Shown here piece after piece: positions 4,239 to 37,415 of a stretch of 37,692 bases of DNA (positions are counted from its first letter, which is position 1; each line of letters starts with the position of its first letter). Source of the stretch: a virus. The DNA lies in the IMG/VR virus record IMGVR_UViG_3300009083_000004, positions 1 through 37,692 of that record, one strand, 5' to 3'. The translations under genes and the position numbers were made by a program. The notes beneath the pieces were generated by a model that was not told the origin of the DNA, did no database searches, and worked only from the letters and a program-made list of their open reading frames with translations.

Positions 4239-6815
4239 TCAATCGCTCAAGAGGCCGCGCTGTTCGGATTCAAGACGGGCGAAGACGCGGTAGACAGCAT
4301 CTTCGGCTGCGCGGCCGATCGCCGCCGGATCGCCGCCTTGGACCTGCACAGTGACTTCCGCGCGCTGGGAGCGGGTGTTGGTGGTCGAACTGGAAGACGC
4401 GCCAGCGACCGCCGCAGCCCCGTTGGTGGTCAATCCGCGCAGGGTGTCGTTCGTCTCGATACGGCCGGTCTGACCGGGCACGAAGATTTCAGGACCGCGC
4501 TCGCCGACCAGGTACGGCTTGCCGAAGCGCACCGGGCCGCCCAATGCGCGCGCGCCAGCGAGCGGCGCGGGAGACTTAGGCGCATTCGGCAAAGTCTTCG
4601 GCGCGGACCACATGCCACGGATGGCACCGGCAACCTCGCCAGCCTTCGAGATGACGGTGCCGAAGAACCCAATCAGGCTTTTGATGCCGTCGATCACGGC
4701 GTTGACGCCGCTCGCTGCCGCGCCGCCGACTGCCTCGCCCCACGACTTCCATTTGGCGCCGCTTTCGTCCAGCGGACCGAGCAACCGCCCCAGCCATCCG
4801 AAGGCGGACGCGAGGCCGTCGCCGATGCTCTTGATCGCCCCGGCGGCCGGGCCAACGCCGGACATGAACCCGTCGCCGAACCCGCCAAAGAAGCTTTTGA
4901 GGCCGTTCCAGTTGTTGGCAACCCACACGCCAAGCGCCGTCAGAGCGACAACGATGGCCGTGATGACCACACCAACGGGGTTGAAGATCAAGGCGGCGCC
5001 GACCGCGCGCAGGGCCACGATGGGGAAGCGCAGAACAGCCGCACCGAACGCGGCGAGGCCCGCGCCAAGGGCGGACACGCCGGCCAGCGCGACCGTCGAG
5101 AACCGCAACATCGCCATCGCGGCAATGAGACCGCGCAGCCGCGCGCCAAAGAGCAGCGCCGCAGCGCCGGCCAGAGCGAGCCCTCGGGCGAGCCCCACAA
5201 CAGCGACCGCCGCCAAACGAAGCGGCGCGAACAGAAGCGCAAGCCCTGCGGCGACACCCTTGAAGGCGAATGCGCCGAGGCGACCGATCGCGCCGAGGAC
5301 AAACAGCAACGGTCCAGCCACCGCCGCAGCCGCGACCAGGCCGACGCCGAGCTTCAACGCCGCCGGGCTCGACTTGCCGAGATCGTCCATCGCCTTCGCG
5401 ATCCGCTCAAGCGCATCCGTGACAACGTCGAGCACGCCGGATCGGGCGATGCTGATCCAGAGGTTGTCCCATGCGCCCTTGAACCGCATCACAGCCCCAA
5501 CGATGCCCTTCAACATCGTCGCGGCACCACGCGCGGACGCGCCATCGGTCTTCGGATCGAGGATTTGGCCCAAGAGGTTCTGATACAAGTCGCCCGAGAA
5601 CAGCGTCGAGAGCCGGGCTCCCTGACGAACGTCGAACAGATTAGCGAGCTTGCCGAGGCTGACGCCCTTCTCTTCGAGAGCGCGGATCATGGCGTCCGCG
5701 TCAACCTCTTCGGCCATATTGCCGAGGAAGCCTGAAATCGTGCTGGCAACTACCTTGCCGTCGCGCGCCTTCAGCTTCATGCCCTCGACAAGCATCTTCG
5801 TGACCGTCTCACGAATCTGCTTCGCCTGCGTCTGCGGGTCCATGTCCTTGACGGCATTCGTGACCTTGTCCATGAGGGACTTGTTCACATTAATGCCGTT
5901 CAAGTTGAGAACGCCCTGCAAGCCGTTGCCGTCGAACTTCTTCCATTTGTTGGTAAACTGCTCGAACGACAGCCCATTGGCTTCCAGCGCGGCGCGCGCG
6001 GCTGCGGTCGGCCTCACCATACGGATCAGCATCGAGCGCAACGCGACGCCGGCCTCGTTGCCCTTGAGGCCGTTCTGATTCATCGTCGCGATGGCAGCGG
6101 CTACCTGCTCGATCGACATGCCCGCCTTGTGCGCCAGCGGGGCGACGTACTTGAAGCCTTCCGCGAAGTCGGACACGTCGGCTCGCGAGATGTTCGCGCC
6201 CTTTGCGAGCACGTCGCCGATCCGGGTCGCAACCTGGCTCGCCTGCTCAAGCGTCTCCATCGGCTTCTGATATGCGGCGGCGACCGAAGTGATAACGTCA
6301 GCGGCTTTCGCCGGCTCAACGTCGCCGTACAGCGAGAAGTTAAGCGTCGGTCGCGACATACCAATGGCCTGGTCAACTGACCGACCGGCCTGAATGTACC
6401 GACGCTGAAGCTCGACCGCATCCTTCGCGCCGGCAAGCCCGAGCCGGGCCATCTCACGCGCGTTGTTTCCGATGCGCTTAAGCTGCTCATCGGACAGTTC
6501 GCCATACGCTTGAGTCTTGTTGAGTTCCTTCTCGAAGCCGTAAACAATCGACGCACCGCTTCGCGCGACCAATGCGCTAGGCATCGTGATCGCCAGCGCC
6601 GCGTCACGGCCCTTCTGTTGAAGTTTCTCGAAGCGCTTCGCCGTCGCATCGACGGAACGATTGAGGGCCGCGAACTGCGCAGCGCCGCGCTGGCCGATAC
6701 CCGCGAGCGAAGCGCCCAAGCTATTGACTTGGGTCTTCGTCGCGGCCACGGCGGCTGCTAGGCTCGGGTTGACCTTGCCCCCGATGTTCACAAATACGGA
6801 GAAGCTGGTCGCCAT
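4239..6815 (-). CDS. T: Tail tape measure protein (P2 gpT-like)
   Basis: An 858-residue protein. The N-terminal 450 residues are helical and Ala-rich with the conserved tape-measure core: GLAGAKDAVELQRRY, DVSDFAEGFKYVAP, AGMSIEQVAAAIATMNQNG and GNEAGVALRSMLIRM. Residues about 485-640 form a long run of hydrophobic segments. The C-terminus is Gly/Ala/Pro-rich with ALGGPVRFGKPYLVGERGPE, the ending seen in many tape measures. It sets tail length and probably helps DNA cross the inner membrane. The ATG at 6813-6815 directly follows the E' stop (TAGATG). Length agrees with P2 gpT (about 815). Confidence 0.93.
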   Translation of the reverse strand: MATSFSVFVNIGGKVNPSLAAAVAATKTQVNSLGASLAGIGQRGAAQFAALNRSVDATAKRFEKLQQKGRDAALAITMPSALVARSGASIVYGFEKELNKTQAYGELSDEQLKRIGNNAREMARLGLAGAKDAVELQRRYIQAGRSVDQAIGMSRPTLNFSLYGDVEPAKAADVITSVAAAYQKPMETLEQASQVATRIGDVLAKGANISRADVSDFAEGFKYVAPLAHKAGMSIEQVAAAIATMNQNGLKGNEAGVALRSMLIRMVRPTAAARAALEANGLSFEQFTNKWKKFDGNGLQGVLNLNGINVNKSLMDKVTNAVKDMDPQTQAKQIRETVTKMLVEGMKLKARDGKVVASTISGFLGNMAEEVDADAMIRALEEKGVSLGKLANLFDVRQGARLSTLFSGDLYQNLLGQILDPKTDGASARGAATMLKGIVGAVMRFKGAWDNLWISIARSGVLDVVTDALERIAKAMDDLGKSSPAALKLGVGLVAAAAVAGPLLFVLGAIGRLGAFAFKGVAAGLALLFAPLRLAAVAVVGLARGLALAGAAALLFGARLRGLIAAMAMLRFSTVALAGVSALGAGLAAFGAAVLRFPIVALRAVGAALIFNPVGVVITAIVVALTALGVWVANNWNGLKSFFGGFGDGFMSGVGPAAGAIKSIGDGLASAFGWLGRLLGPLDESGAKWKSWGEAVGGAAASGVNAVIDGIKSLIGFFGTVISKAGEVAGAIRGMWSAPKTLPNAPKSPAPLAGARALGGPVRFGKPYLVGERGPEIFVPGQTGRIETNDTLRGLTTNGAAAVAGASSSSTTNTRSQRAEVTVQVQGGDPAAIGRAAEDAVYRVFARLESEQRGLLSD

Positions 6816-28988: not shown

Positions 28989-29120
28989 ATGACCGAACAA
29001 GACCTGATTGATCTGGCGATCGAATATGCGCTGATCCACTCCACAACCGATTTCCGCCAGCGTAGCGCCAAGGCGCGCGGCGCGATCTTGCGCCAGATGA
29101 TGACCGTTGCGGGAGCTTGA
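28989..29120 (+). CDS. 43-residue protein, first gene of the accessory cassette
   Basis: From ATG 28989-28991, with GGAG nine bases ahead, to TGA 29118-29120. The product begins MTEQDLIDLAIEYALIHSTT and ends AILRQMMTVAGA, a short helical protein. An in-frame ATG further upstream lacks a ribosome site. It is followed after two bases by the next gene's ATG, so the two are likely translated together. Family unknown. Confidence 0.6.
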   Translation: MTEQDLIDLAIEYALIHSTTDFRQRSAKARGAILRQMMTVAGA

Positions 29121-29122
29121 TC

Positions 29123-29842
29123 ATGATCAGCCCCGCACTGCTCAACTCTTACCGCTACTGGCGCCAGCAAGCGCCGACCCGCACTGCGGAAATGGCGCTA
29201 TTCAACGCGCGCAAAGACGCCGCCAACGGAAAGACGCGCTATCCCGCCAGCGGCGGCATGGGCGCGGCGTTCAAGGTCGGCGCGGATATGTGCCGCTGGG
29301 TCGAAAGCCCGAAGGAATACGGCCTGCGGTTTGTCGGTCCGGCAGACGAGGTAGCCTCTCAATCAATCCAACATACCGGATGGTTTCTTGATGACGATCA
29401 TCAAGACGAAACCGCGCGCGGCGCGGTTTTTCAGCTTCCCGCGCGCAACGGCAAACCGCAATTCGTCGCGGCCGTCCTAGACCCATGTAACAACGGCCCG
29501 GCAATCGTCGCCTTTGACGACATCACAGACGAAGCAACCACAGCCGCGTCATGGGCTGATCAGCTAGCGGAATGCTACGCGGAGGAGGAACGCGATTATC
29601 GACGCGGCTCCAATGCCCGTTTTGTGTTCGATGAATTGGGCTGTGACGTTGTTAGCAACCGCCGTGAAGCCCTCACGCTGATCCGCGAAGCCAAGGCTTT
29701 GCGCGACGCCTTCGGTCCGAAGGTTTGCGCCACGGTCCGCGCGGCAATTGAGTCGCTGATCCGTGACATTCGCAAAGCCCGCGCCCGTCGCGCCCGGCTC
29801 GAGTCCGAGTTCGCCAGCCATCCCAGTTGGCAAGACGCCTAA
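29123..29842 (+). CDS. Uncharacterised protein of the ArdA cassette
   Basis: A 239-residue protein from ATG 29123-29125 (GGGAG seven bases ahead; an earlier TTG overlaps the upstream stop). The N-terminal half has MISPALLNSYRYWRQQAPTR and a beta-rich part with GAVFQLPARNGKPQFVAAVL and NNGPAIVAFDDITDEATTAA. The C-terminal half is helical and charged (REAKALRDAFGPKVCATVRA), ending in a basic helix. I do not recognise it. Its position next to ardA makes an accessory or counter-defence role possible. Confidence 0.75.
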   Translation: MISPALLNSYRYWRQQAPTRTAEMALFNARKDAANGKTRYPASGGMGAAFKVGADMCRWVESPKEYGLRFVGPADEVASQSIQHTGWFLDDDHQDETARGAVFQLPARNGKPQFVAAVLDPCNNGPAIVAFDDITDEATTAASWADQLAECYAEEERDYRRGSNARFVFDELGCDVVSNRREALTLIREAKALRDAFGPKVCATVRAAIESLIRDIRKARARRARLESEFASHPSWQDA

Positions 29843-29872
29843 TCCCTCCCCCTCAGATCAGGAACTAACACA

Positions 29873-30442
29873 ATGCGTTTTTATGCCGCTTGCCTCGCAT
29901 CCTACAATGCCGGTGTCTTGCATGGCGCTTGGATTGAAGCGTCGGACGATGTCGCCGAAATGCAGATGGAAGTTAACGCCATGCTGCGCGCGTCGCCGTT
30001 CCCCAATGTCACCGTGACGCATCCGGTAACAGGCGAGTCCGTGCCGTCCGCCGAAGAATGGGCGATTCACAACCACGAGGGCTTTGGCGGCGATCTTGCC
30101 GAATATGCCGGGCTAGCGAAGGTCGCGCAGCTATTCACCCTCAATGAAGTCGCCGAAGATCATGACATTCCGCTTTGCATCCTGCGGGACGCTATGAACG
30201 ACGCAACCGCCGACCTTGATCGCGCGGAAGAGTTTATCAGCGACCGATATCGGGGAACGGCTGATACATGGGCCGATTTCGCGGAAGAGTTCACGCGCGA
30301 CACTCACGATATGTCAACGGTTCCGGACTTCCTACAAAACCATATCGATTGGCACAGCATGGGCCGCGAATTTGAAATGTGCGGCGACTTCTCCGGCATC
30401 CGTCACGACGGCGAAAAGCTTTACATCTTCTGGAATCACTGA
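29873..30442 (+). CDS. ardA: Antirestriction protein ArdA
   Basis: A 189-residue acidic protein. The N-terminus MRFYAACLASYNAGVLHGAW is the ArdA signature, followed by IEASDDVAEMQMEVNAML, the EEWAIHNHEGFGG motif, a GDLAEYAGLAKVAQLFTLNE segment, YRGTADTWADFAEEFTRDTH and the C-terminal IDWHSMGREFEMCGDFSGIR then LYIFWNH. ArdA mimics bent B-form DNA and blocks type I restriction enzymes. AGGA lies about ten bases before the ATG. It is the anchor for reading the surrounding small genes as an early accessory set. Confidence 0.95.
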   Translation: MRFYAACLASYNAGVLHGAWIEASDDVAEMQMEVNAMLRASPFPNVTVTHPVTGESVPSAEEWAIHNHEGFGGDLAEYAGLAKVAQLFTLNEVAEDHDIPLCILRDAMNDATADLDRAEEFISDRYRGTADTWADFAEEFTRDTHDMSTVPDFLQNHIDWHSMGREFEMCGDFSGIRHDGEKLYIFWNH

Positions 30443-30443
30443 C

Positions 30444-30755
30444 ATGCGCCGCAAATACACGCCGCGCCGTCAGTCCGCCCGTTGGCTCGACTCTGATTGC
30501 CCGAAAGGCGTTCTGGCAATCCTAGACGCTGGCAAAACCACGAACGGCCGTTGGACGGTCATTTATGCGGAGCCGGTTGTTAGCGGCGACTATCACGAAA
30601 CCATTCTCGGATATCGCGGCATGTGCAGTACACCGTTCGCGCCGTGTGGCGTCGGGCTCTATGGCGAAATGCCCGCGCATGACGCGGTGTACGTTTGCGG
30701 GACGCTTGCAGCGGACTGTCAGACGTACACCGCTCTAATTCAAGTTGAGGATTGA
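30444..30755 (+). CDS. Uncharacterised protein downstream of ardA
   Basis: A 103-residue protein from ATG 30444-30446, one base after the ardA stop. A longer upstream frame lies inside ardA and is rejected. The sequence is beta-rich with several Cys and Gly: DCPKGVLAILDAGKTTNGRW, VVSGDYHETILGYRGMCS and DAVYVCGTLAADCQTYTALI. No family recognised. Coupled to ardA by position. Confidence 0.75.
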   Translation: MRRKYTPRRQSARWLDSDCPKGVLAILDAGKTTNGRWTVIYAEPVVSGDYHETILGYRGMCSTPFAPCGVGLYGEMPAHDAVYVCGTLAADCQTYTALIQVED

Positions 30756-30758
30756 ACC

Positions 30759-30983
30759 ATGCCCGATCAACTTTTCATCGTGCGGTGCGAGCTTATCGAC
30801 TCTGTCAACGTAGCGGCGCCCGGCGGCATTGAGGCGATGCGCCGTGCGGTTAAAGTATTCGCACGCCAATATGGCGTTGACCCTGATCGCGTCATCGCCA
30901 CATCATGCCGTGGCGCCACCGATCGAGAGGCCGAGGCATTCCGCAAGCGGCGCAAGGTTGCCGCGAAGGAGTCCGCGCGATGA
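30759..30983 (+). CDS. Uncharacterised 74-residue protein
   Basis: From ATG 30759-30761, with GAGGA seven bases ahead. It has a beta-alpha core (QLFIVRCELIDSVNVAAPGG, MRRAVKVFARQYGVDPDRVI) and a strongly basic end (FRKRRKVAAKESAR). The basic tail could contact nucleic acid. It overlaps the following zinc-ribbon gene (ATGA). Confidence 0.7.
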   Translation: MPDQLFIVRCELIDSVNVAAPGGIEAMRRAVKVFARQYGVDPDRVIATSCRGATDREAEAFRKRRKVAAKESAR

Positions 30984-31093
30984 CTCCCGGTATCCTTGTC
31001 TATTGCATCGGTTGCCGCGTCGCATTCCGCATTCCCGCGCATTGGCTCCCTTATCGTTGCGATGAATGCGAGTCGCCCGTCACGGTCTATTAG
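30980..31093 (+). CDS. 37-residue zinc-ribbon protein
   Basis: From ATG 30980-30982 (ATGA overlap with the upstream stop) to TAG 31091-31093. Two CxxC knuckles, YCIGC and RCDEC, are 14 residues apart, a minimal zinc ribbon. Such micro-proteins are frequent in phage early regions and may bind nucleic acid or a host protein. It ends just before the structured segment 31100-31166. Confidence 0.7.
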   Translation: MTPGILVYCIGCRVAFRIPAHWLPYRCDECESPVTVY

Positions 31094-31099
31094 GACGAA

Positions 31100-31166
31100 A
31101 CCGGCCCGCATGCCGGTCTAGCGGTATCGCCGCTACTGACGAGTCCATGTCAGCCCAAATAAGGGG
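31100..31166 (+). ncRNA. Run of three or four abutting stem-loops, candidate structured RNA or leader
   Basis: ACCGGC (31100-31105) pairs with GCCGGT (31112-31117); TAGCGG (31119-31124) with CCGCTA (31130-31135); CTGAC (31136-31140) with GTCAG (31149-31153). These stems touch or are one base apart. A fourth, CCC (31154-31156) with GGG (31163-31165), would cover the AAGGGG ribosome site of the next gene. Nothing looks like a tRNA T-loop or acceptor stem. It may be a leader that controls the gene at 31173, an sRNA, or a processing signal. Confidence 0.5.
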
Positions 31167-31172
31167 TGAGCT

Positions 31173-31340
31173 ATGACGGCTGAAGAGCTTCGCGGCGCGA
31201 TCTTGCGCGACATTGATCAACTATCGGACCGCGTGAAAGCGGCAAACACCTATCGCGGTAGGGTCACCAATTACGGAGAAGAGCGACTCGCGGTAATCGC
31301 GGCCGTTCGGGAATTGGTCGCGAAGGATCGAGGCGAATGA
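31173..31340 (+). CDS. 55-residue helical protein after the structured leader
   Basis: From ATG 31173-31175 with AAGGGGTGAG as a strong ribosome site, to TGA 31338-31340. The product begins MTAEELRGAILRDIDQLSDR and is helical throughout (NYGEERLAVIAAVRELVAKD). The next gene starts inside its stop (ATGA). Family unknown. Confidence 0.65.
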   Translation: MTAEELRGAILRDIDQLSDRVKAANTYRGRVTNYGEERLAVIAAVRELVAKDRGE

Positions 31341-31495
31341 TCCGCGCCGCTATGATCTGCGCCGCACTATGCGCCACAACCGCCGCGCATGCCAAGGGCG
31401 ACGCGCAATTCTGGCCCCAATATCAGGATTGCGAGTCCATTATGACGATCGCGCCGCTTGGCCTCTGGATCGATGACCGGAAGGCAAGCCGATGA
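31337..31495 (+). CDS. 52-residue exported protein
   Basis: From ATG 31337-31339, overlapping the upstream stop, to TGA 31493-31495. MIRAAMICAALCATTAAHA is a convincing signal peptide with an A-x-A cleavage site before KGD. The mature part is about 33 residues with W and C (QFWPQYQDCESIMTIAPLGL). A secreted micro-protein in the early accessory set could act in the periplasm or envelope, for example superinfection exclusion; that is a guess. Confidence 0.55.
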   Translation: MIRAAMICAALCATTAAHAKGDAQFWPQYQDCESIMTIAPLGLWIDDRKASR

Positions 31496-31788
31496 TGTAC
31501 CGGAATGAGTTTCCCGACTTCCCAGCAAGCGACATGCCCGGCGATATCCCGCCGGGCTTTGTCGATTCATCATGGCGGAATGACATCTGCCCCAGCTTCA
31601 CAAACGAGGCGCTAGGTTTGGTCCTTTGGATTGATTTCGCCGACCCTTCGCGCAGGGAGTTCCCGCACTGGCACCGCTACCGCGTCACCACTGCGTCGGC
31701 AGACGATATCGCCGATCTATTCGACTCGGATGACTTCGCGGCCGTCGTGGCGTTTGTCGCCGCGCAGGAAGGCGCTAGGGGCGCATAG
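31492..31788 (+). CDS. Uncharacterised acidic 98-residue protein
   Basis: From ATG 31492-31494 (a second ATG follows directly), overlapping the upstream stop (ATGA). Acidic and aromatic: FPDFPASDMPGDIPPGFVDS, then LGLVLWIDFADPSRREFPHW and SADDIADLFDSDDFAAVVAF. The high Asp/Glu content recalls DNA-mimic or anti-defence proteins, but no family is recognised. It ends within the hairpin at 31778-31833. Confidence 0.65.
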   Translation: MMYRNEFPDFPASDMPGDIPPGFVDSSWRNDICPSFTNEALGLVLWIDFADPSRREFPHWHRYRVTTASADDIADLFDSDDFAAVVAFVAAQEGARGA

Positions 31789-31863: not shown

Positions 31864-32295
31864 ATGTCGCGCCACCATTGGCGCGCGAATGATGGTCCGC
31901 GCGTAGTCGCGAGTCGCATTCGTGCGCCTTCAGCCGGGCAAAGCGCGCCATTTCGCGTGGCGCCGACCCGCGTCATTTTGTCGCAGTTTCGCGGCCGTGG
32001 CGCGGTCGGCGCGGCGATCCGCGCCCTTTGGCGCGCCAGAGGCGACCCGCTCCACAACGCGATTAGAAGCCCGCCGATGCGTTTTCGCGGAAAGGCTAGC
32101 CGTGTGCCGCCCAAATCGGGAAGGCTATCAGGCGCGCGCGCCAGCGCCGGCAATCGGCCCTCAAATCGAGGTCGGGAAACGCACGTTTCCGCCGCGCGGT
32201 CGGCCGCAGGAAGGAAATTTCCCTCACAAACTTACATATCAGGGGAATACGACACGACCTACGCGGGTAAAGTGCCGAAACGGCCGAGAGGGTGA
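31864..32295 (+). CDS. Possible basic, Arg-rich protein (doubtful)
   Basis: From ATG 31864-31866, with AAGGAAGGAG about nine bases before it, an open frame of 143 residues runs to TGA 32293-32295. It is very rich in Arg and Ala (MSRHHWRANDGPRVVASRIR, RGRGAVGAAIRALWRARGD) and lacks the normal amino-acid mix, so it may be a chance frame in GC-rich DNA. If not coding, 31834-32295 is a non-coding stretch with many GGCGCG-like motifs. Confidence 0.3.
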   Translation: MSRHHWRANDGPRVVASRIRAPSAGQSAPFRVAPTRVILSQFRGRGAVGAAIRALWRARGDPLHNAIRSPPMRFRGKASRVPPKSGRLSGARASAGNRPSNRGRETHVSAARSAAGRKFPSQTYISGEYDTTYAGKVPKRPRG

Positions 32296-32793
32296 TGTAG
32301 CCCTGATGAGGCGGCCAAAAAAATAAATTTTTTTTAGGGGGGCTACGCGAGCGAGTGGCGGTCCTCGCGGTCCACGCCACACGTCAGTAGCTCCCACCGC
32401 TTGCTTCGGCAATACGAACGCACGCGCGCCATGGGCCATCCACGCATGTAGCGAATGATCGGCGCGATACGACCGGCCACGGTGCCATCGATCACTTCCG
32501 CGCCAGCACAGAAATGCGGGGCATCGATCCAGAGCAAGCCTGGGTCGGTCGGGCTCAACATCGAGGTCGGGTACGGACCATTCATGGATTGCGACCTCGG
32601 TGCGATTGGGAGCGATCAGTCGGTCAGCGTCGTGGTACTGATCCTGGCTCTCACTCAGTGAGACCGAGGCGATGGTGATCATCACGCCGGTCAGCGCAAC
32701 CAACGACCACCGGCTCGATCGCGGGCGATGGTCAGGGGGGTGGGGAGTCTGTCCCGTCATTTTTTCGGAAGGTGGTGGAGTCATTTCGCTCAT
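32239..32793 (-). CDS. Possible membrane protein of uncertain 3' end
   Basis: The ATG at 32791-32793 overlaps the upstream stop (ATGA). The first 85 residues look real: a Pro-rich N-terminus, a membrane segment RWSLVALTGVMITIASVSLS and a polar part ADRLIAPNRTEVAIHEWSVP. After about 32585 the frame runs antisense-like through the 80-residue gene until 32239. A lost stop or frameshift near 32585 is likely. Only the first part is supported. Confidence 0.35.
   Translation of the reverse strand: MSEMTPPPSEKMTGQTPHPPDHRPRSSRWSLVALTGVMITIASVSLSESQDQYHDADRLIAPNRTEVAIHEWSVPDLDVEPDRPRLALDRCPAFLCWRGSDRWHRGRSYRADHSLHAWMAHGARAFVLPKQAVGATDVWRGPRGPPLARVAPLKKIYFFGRLIRATSPSRPFRHFTRVGRVVFP
32319..32337. terminator. 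A/T palindrome between convergent genes, possible two-way terminator
   Basis: AAAAAAATAAATTTTTTTT (32319-32337) separates the plus-strand cassette from the minus-strand operon that ends at 32343. On each strand it gives a T-tract. A flanking GTAGCCC (32299-32305) can pair with GGGCTAC (32339-32345) to close a larger stem. It fits a bidirectional terminator. Confidence 0.5.
32343..32585 (-). CDS. Uncharacterised 80-residue protein, last gene of the minus early operon
   Basis: From ATG 32583-32585, with GAGGT nine bases ahead, to TAG 32343-32345. It begins MNGPYPTSMLSPTDPGLLWI, has DGTVAGRIAPIIRYMRGWPM and ends in a basic segment with two cysteines (RVRSYCRSKRWELLTC). Codon third positions look normal, unlike the overlapping frame of the upstream gene. 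Family unknown. Confidence 0.55.
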   Translation of the reverse strand: MNGPYPTSMLSPTDPGLLWIDAPHFCAGAEVIDGTVAGRIAPIIRYMRGWPMARVRSYCRSKRWELLTCGVDREDRHSLA

Positions 32794-36692: not shown

Positions 36693-37415
36693 ATGTTCCG
36701 TATGTACTTTGGCCTCGTCATGACCGGCGTCGCCATCTCGAACACCACTGATGCCCTGATTCAGGGCTACCCGTGGGTCGCCGTCTTCTTCGCTGCGCTC
36801 GGGCTCATCATCGGCATCCCGTCATGGTTCGACATGCGCCTCCTGTTCAAGGTCGAGGCTAACCTGGCCGAGATGGGGCGGGATATTGACCTTCTGACCA
36901 CGCGGTCAGCCGAGCACGCCAGCGACGCCGGGGCCTACTTCCACGCACTGATCCGAGCGCGTGATGCGCTGAGTGAGGGCGAGTTCGGCGAAGCCTTCGT
37001 GATCGTGTCCGACGCGCTCGCGCACATGGAAGACAACCGTGAGATCGCCGTCCGGCACTGCGTCAACTGGCTGACGGTGATCCTGCACGACGCCAACAAG
37101 CATTGGTGGATCGACCCGGCCACCGGCGAGAACCTTCGCAAGGCCCGCTTCATCGTGCCGACCAAGCTGATGCTTGTCGTGAGTGAATTGTCCGAGGCGA
37201 TGGAGGCGCACCGCAAGAATCTGCCCGACGACAAGCTGCCCCACTTCGACGGCTTCACGGTCGAACTCGCCGACGCCCTGATCCGCATCCTCGATCTGGC
37301 TGGTTCTCAGAACTGCAAGCTCGGTGACGCCGCCGCCGAGAAGATGATCTACAACGCCAAGCGCGAGGACCATAAGGTCGCTGCCCGCCTCGGCGCCAAC
37401 GGGAAGGCGTACTGA
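36693..37415 (+). CDS. Membrane-anchored MazG-like nucleotide pyrophosphohydrolase
   Basis: A 240-residue protein. The N-terminus has hydrophobic helices at about 4-20 and 27-46 (YPWVAVFFAALGLIIGIPSW). Residues 60-150 are a helical linker with DNREIAVRHCVNWLTVILHD. The C-terminal domain carries the MazG all-alpha NTP-PPase motif: KLMLVVSELSEAMEAHRKNL with E165 and E168, and TVELADALIRILDLAG with E191 and D194, the EXXE...EXXD metal set. It would hydrolyse (d)NTPs to the monophosphate form, or modified or signal nucleotides. Membrane anchoring is unusual for MazG. Nucleotide-based defence or (p)ppGpp control is a possible target, by inference only. Confidence 0.75.
   Translation: MFRMYFGLVMTGVAISNTTDALIQGYPWVAVFFAALGLIIGIPSWFDMRLLFKVEANLAEMGRDIDLLTTRSAEHASDAGAYFHALIRARDALSEGEFGEAFVIVSDALAHMEDNREIAVRHCVNWLTVILHDANKHWWIDPATGENLRKARFIVPTKLMLVVSELSEAMEAHRKNLPDDKLPHFDGFTVELADALIRILDLAGSQNCKLGDAAAEKMIYNAKREDHKVAARLGANGKAY

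Follow-up and report, generated by a model that had tools for sequence, protein, structure and literature searches.

Positions 31093–31146 (+) of the viral DNA analyzed here are, judged from their sequence, a type II hammerhead ribozyme that overlaps the stop codon of a very small phage gene close to ardA. The window, by which we refer to the whole stretch under analysis, is a 37,692-base IMG/VR record of a tailed phage with terminase, portal, capsid, tape-measure and baseplate genes. Its terminase is closest to those of Roseobacter phages (about 51%), and no relatives of the window at the DNA level were found among named phages. The ribozyme belongs to a small operon of accessory genes (29117–31788, +) that includes ardA. 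The first-pass annotation had placed the region in an ArdA cassette, and the ArdA anti-restriction protein is indeed encoded in the same operon at 29873–30442 (+) (PF07275, 1.5e-29). Upstream of the ribozyme, a 37-aa ORF (30980–31093, +; stop codon TAG at 31091–31093) harbors two CxxC motifs and is zinc-ribbon-like, its match to zinc_ribbon_6 reaching 20.3 bits, below the cut-off of 27. The 55-aa ORF downstream (31173–31340, +), taken from the ORF list, belongs to no family according to profile searches, and no confirmed relatives of its product were obtained in the search. Its sequence-predicted ribosome-binding site, AAGGGG (31161–31166, +), also occurs in the related loci L125 and L126.

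All invariant parts of the hammerhead core are present, with GAAA at 31097–31100, GTC at 31116–31118 and CTGACGA at 31136–31142. The 5' strand of stem II, GGAC (31093–31096, +), starts with the G that ends the TAG stop codon and forms 4 bp with the 3' strand GUCC (31143–31146, +), as indicated by fold and sequence. It is followed by the conserved GAA and A15.1 (31097–31100, +), which are invariant in alignments A1 and A5, the gathering pattern itself having required those letters. The stem III hairpin ACCGGC-CCGCAT-GCCGGT (31100–31117, +), assigned by fold and letters and with 100% of its cells paired in A1, would form the 3' end of an upstream cleavage product. According to the hammerhead consensus and its numbering, cleavage is predicted after C17 of GUC, between 31118 and 31119 (+). 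The stem I hairpin TAGCGG-TATCG-CCGCTA (31119–31135, +), in which all six pairs covary in A1, would cap the downstream product at its 5' end; it is followed by the catalytic core CUGACGA (31136–31142, +) with C as N7. Thus, three stems surround the core, stems I and III being closed by loops and stem II being open, and the minimum free energy (MFE) structure of 31088–31151 consisted of exactly these three stems plus one G-U pair inside loop I. Finally, an arm with the sequence GUCAG at 31149–31153 (+), here termed anti-core, can pair with CUGAC at 31136–31140 and thereby excludes the ribozyme fold.

The first-pass annotation had described three consecutive stem-loops with at most one spare base, and these are real: ACCGGC/GCCGGT (31100–31105/31112–31117), TAGCGG/CCGCTA (31119–31124/31130–31135) and CTGAC/GTCAG (31136–31140/31149–31153), with one base separating the first two and the third following directly on the second. 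The third hairpin is genuine but represents an alternative to the ribozyme fold and no third element of it. Likewise, the fourth stem proposed to hide AAGGGG exists as CCC/GGG (31154–31156/31163–31165), but comprises 3 bp only and is absent from relatives. The span proposed at the time, 31100–31166, misses the first 7 bases of the functional unit, which starts at 31093. A tRNA had rightly been excluded, as ARAGORN detected none in the window. However, the suggestions of a leader riboregulator, an sRNA or an RNA interacting with host defence missed the hammerhead identity because the core (GAAA...GUC...CUGANGA plus stem II) went unrecognized, and we found no sign of an action on host defence.

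An Rfam search, recommended earlier as a check, aligned RF02276 to the ribozyme end to end with 34.2 bits (E 1.8e-5 over 301 bases and 2.7e-4 over 4.4 kb). This score falls short of the curated cut-off of 37 bits, which is a rule of the database and not a property defining a ribozyme; at the cut-off, Rfam reported no known RNA family in the window. Profile R2, derived from 40 other phage copies with the window and its near-twins L042 and L070 excluded, scored the ribozyme at 62 bits (E 1.7e-15). With filters switched off it was the sole strong match in the window, nothing else exceeding 12.6 bits; 35 matches were listed in all, and the other weak ones looked like chance. Based on the leave-out model and on covariation, the hammerhead identity does not depend on Rfam alone. 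The window copy shares with RF02276 the core letters, the permutation with an open stem II, the GUC cleavage site and the intergenic place in a phage, but differs by a stem II of 4 bp and the lack of a pseudoknot between loop I and the 3' tail, for which no run of 3 or more bp was found in this copy (score 0). Such a pseudoknot could be formed by most type II hammerheads in the text of Perreault 2011, where it is usual and not required (PMC3088659).

Hammerhead-like letters, GCCGAAAC...CTGATGAGGC, also occur at 32273–32313 (+), adjoining a T run, and scored 12.4 bits with profile R1 and 19.3 bits with RF02276. This site was rejected as a second hammerhead since the core letters are there with stems I and III unpaired; it is a decoy or else a different structured element located where two genes converge.

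Further copies were gathered with a DNA pattern in which the core was fixed and the stems were free, resulting in at least 120 viral stretches; the gathering patterns required the core letters and three stem II pairs, and several copies on one contig are kin. In 157 of 163 unselected parses among the matches listed, stems I and III each reached 4 bp or more. Of the six failing parses, one (L063) merely re-read a copy that had passed in another parse, and those in L011 and L050 scored above 50 bits with R1. Covariation was determined on alignment A1, which consists of 43 equal-sized copies among the matches listed, rows with stems of 4 bp or longer having been selected for it. The covariation score was 0.608 versus 0.120 for shuffled alignments, none of 500 being as high, and at most 0.116 for slides; 99.2% of the stem cells were paired. 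Omission of the window and its twins gave 0.611 versus 0.119. Stems I and III covaried strongly, and the outermost pair of stem II changed from GC to AU in 2 of the 43 rows and was unpaired in 3. The structured RNA postulated in the first-pass annotation thereby passed the test proposed with it, a search for covarying pairs among homologues.

A script encoding the full type II hammerhead recovered 230 copies in 123 loci among the matches listed and none in 1,883,956 mononucleotide-shuffled bases; these runs omitted 11 loci duplicating others or the window. Hence, the earlier claim of a density of structure above chance is decisively borne out by the motif, and only moderately by folding energy (z −2.31 for 31088–31151, with 4 of 200 shuffles as good, and z −2.24 for 31080–31190, with 5 of 200). 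Up to eight copies occurred per locus among the matches listed, indicating that operons can be cut between several genes. Three phage stretches (L119, L098 and L106) hold seven or eight type II hammerheads each, apparently between successive genes. In 16 sibling loci between L005 and L124, Rfam reported 3 at its cut-off, and the script found 64 in 13 of those loci, which suggests that the cut-off hides most of the phage hammerhead group. Under strict filters, only 2 of 190 bacterial genomes of one class held such ribozymes, pointing to a mainly phage feature.

The position at the stop codon was general among the gathered copies. Calling ORFs mechanically, we found that an ORF of 60 aa or more, upstream on the same strand, ended between −6 and +15 nt from the ribozyme in 176 of 230 copies among the matches listed, compared to 6.4% of random positions. 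The start of a downstream ORF was no more than 60 nt away in 127 of 230 (control, 16.3%) and the tail contained a ribosome-site-like motif in 193 of 230 (shuffled tails, 51%), again among the matches listed. However, the place is not purely intergenic, as 64 of the 230 copies among the matches listed were situated within an ORF of 60 aa or longer on the same strand, whatever its frame. The median distance from stop codon to cleavage site was 26 nt (374 of 441 copies with a nearby stop, among the matches listed).

From the computed motif, covariation and placement we infer that the type II hammerhead probably cuts polycistronic phage mRNA between genes and generates hairpin-capped ends, with the core-hiding hairpin either latching the product or restraining the precursor. 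The transcript of the accessory operon would fold on itself and cut between 31118 and 31119. The upstream mRNA, comprising ardA and three small ORFs, would then end in the stem III hairpin 25 nt past the stop codon, and the downstream mRNA would start flush with the stem I hairpin and retain its own ribosome site. As deduced from topology, only the type II layout gives a hairpin at both new ends, the products being joined by the 4-bp stem II alone. Hammerhead cleavage leaves a cyclic phosphate and a 5'-OH, and bacterial nucleases prefer unpaired ends. Hairpins at both ends together with the join by stem II would thus suit the formation of two separately stable mRNAs, both retaining a ribosome site. 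The GUCAG tail would most likely close the core once the RNA has been cut, which would prevent re-ligation and protect the 5' end, and may also keep part of the precursor uncut; the energies fit both a product latch and a precursor restraint, between which kinetics decide. With a single ribozyme in the window, this operon would be cut once at most.

The anti-core hairpin is identical to the third stem-loop of the first-pass annotation. In the window it has 5 bp and an 8-nt loop, at the short end of its class, and it cannot coexist with the ribozyme because both use the core strand CUGAC. Copies were counted as anti-core when the 14 nt after the first three stem II bases contained a stretch of 5 nt or more that is reverse-complementary to the core. 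A first look yielded 25 of 144 distinct copies among the matches listed; overall, the tail pairs with the core (CUGAN/NUCAG) in 51 of 442 distinct copies among the matches listed. The feature was present in 29 of 212 copies of the first set among the matches listed (shuffles: mean 2.08, maximum 7 in 300) and in 22 of 230 of a second set among the matches listed, gathered separately with other stem II sequences (mean 2.16, maximum 8 in 500). Control motifs were rare in the 442 copies among the matches listed: the reversed core occurred 3 times, its plain complement 7 times, the core itself 5 times, the N7-swapped complement 7 times and the other core strand 1 to 3 times. The arm base tracked N7, the only core base that varies. 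Counted once per locus and state among the matches listed, which corrects only partly for kin copies, there were 26 T/A, 18 C/G, 5 T/G and 1 C/A combinations (Fisher 3.0e-8 for this four-cell table, which ignores kinship between copies and leaves out 7 loci with other bases), and L078, L119 and L229 each contained both matched states within the contig. Loop length varied from 3 to 14 nt with the pairing kept. In the first set, pseudoknots of 4 bp or longer (46 of 212 among the matches listed; shuffled mean 25.4, maximum 36 in 300) displayed a weaker excess. Anti-core pairing is a class feature and not an accident of the window copy.

According to nearest-neighbour energies, the anti-core hairpin is more stable than closure of stem II in 48 of the 51 copies, with −5.9 versus −4.4 kcal/mol in the window. 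When flanks were included, the MFE structure was the alternative with the anti-core hairpin and not the ribozyme fold, and for the predicted downstream product of 70 nt a different pairing again is favoured. Based on the flanked fold and these energies, the window copy could be slow or mostly inactive. As for the role of the arm, we tentatively suggest that a sub-class of phage type II hammerheads, with the window as a member, evolved a core-hiding tail hairpin tracking N7 as a two-state switch, such that operon cutting might depend on how the RNA folds during transcription, or on ribosomes occupying the overlapping stop codon and the ribosome site next to it. A rival reading, in which the hairpin is the main point and acts as an off-switch, is rather doubtful. 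Here, ribosomes at the stop codon would cover the 5' core strand, ribosome loading at the next gene would open the 3' arm, and translation would tune cleavage. The overlap of the stem II 5' strand with the stop codon in most copies and the higher stability of the anti-core in 48 of 51 agree with this idea, as does the 3' arm ending at a median of 8 nt before the ribosome-site-like motif, which is also further out in anti-core copies (median 18 versus 16 nt, p 0.0013). However, this shift is small and may reflect only room for the arm, and the anti-core occurs in just 51 of 442 distinct copies among the matches listed although placement at the stop codon is general.

The orthologous places in L125, L126 and L128 all hold the ribozyme, in L125 with GUA instead of GUC and another stem III. 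The anti-core arm is kept in L126 and L125 and lost in L128. The preceding gene differs in L125 and L126 and the following gene differs between the window and L128, although the ribozyme sequence is nearly unchanged in L126 and L128. Such exchanges of genes beside a conserved element, as well as near-identical copies within one contig (e.g., in L026 and L034), would be in line with a sequence that serves mainly as a shared linker, where recombination between short border sequences swaps accessory genes. We consider this improbable, since compensating changes are seen in the stems, whereas selection for identity in a linker would not call for them, and the core is kept exactly. About equally improbable is a decayed, inactive relic with left-over hairpins. 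The Rfam score below the cut-off and the flanked MFE structure would fit a relic, as would the 4 inactive candidates among 18 consensus-type hammerheads tested according to the text of Perreault 2011 (PMC3088659), but every core base is present, all three stems are fully paired and the sequence is near-unchanged in L126 and L128 beside differing genes. An ordinary leader riboregulator, sRNA or chance hairpin cluster devoid of catalysis, for which the only moderately unusual folding energy might speak, is highly improbable given the full hammerhead consensus, the covariation and the absence of the motif from 1.88 Mb of shuffled sequence.

That prophage operons can contain type II hammerheads, beside ardA as well, is already known from the text of Perreault 2011 (PMC3088659). 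It describes three hammerheads surrounding ardA in Agrobacterium tumefaciens and one before ardA in Legionella, reports cleavage of tested tandem phage-type hammerheads in vitro and, for the A. tumefaciens ardA set, also in E. coli, and already proposes processing of phage transcripts. The window resembles these sets in that the hammerhead resides in a prophage or phage operon with ardA; unlike the triple set of A. tumefaciens, it has a single copy, three small genes downstream of ardA. Both the pseudoknot hammerheads described in that text and the window rely on the tail immediately 3' of stem II, but the pseudoknot supports the active fold, whereas the tail in the window pairs with the catalytic core and competes with it. 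Stop-codon placement and the core-complementary tail appear to be less known. A literature search, covering mainly the texts of freely accessible papers, yielded no report of stop-codon placement or a core-hiding hairpin, which is weak evidence for novelty; in the text of PMC3088659, the terms 'stop codon', 'sequester' and 'misfold' occur 0 times. The role of prokaryotic hammerheads is still called an open question in the text of a 2017 review (PMC6155905). The position at the stop codon, retention of the ribosome site, a hairpin on either new end and the covarying arm that hides the core allow specific and cheap tests of whether a single-gene mRNA is stabilized per cut and whether cutting is switched by translation.

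The possibility that ardA is a constant hammerhead partner was rejected as a general rule because a strong hammerhead (E 1e-3 or better) was present in only 5 of 71 ardA loci, three of them contigs already in the set, and in none of five named phages with ardA. A search of 27 ardA loci with Rfam gave no ribozyme at the cut-off.

In L179, ardA is flanked by a Twister-P5 ribozyme (5837–5900, 41.6 bits) and a type II hammerhead (6600–6664, 31.9 bits). Two self-cutting classes around one gene would be expected if the aim were the freeing of a single-gene mRNA. Elsewhere in the window, the C-terminal part of the product of 36693–37415 (+) matches a phage pyrophosphatase family (phrog_5658, 1.7e-51), its first 114 residues lying outside the match.
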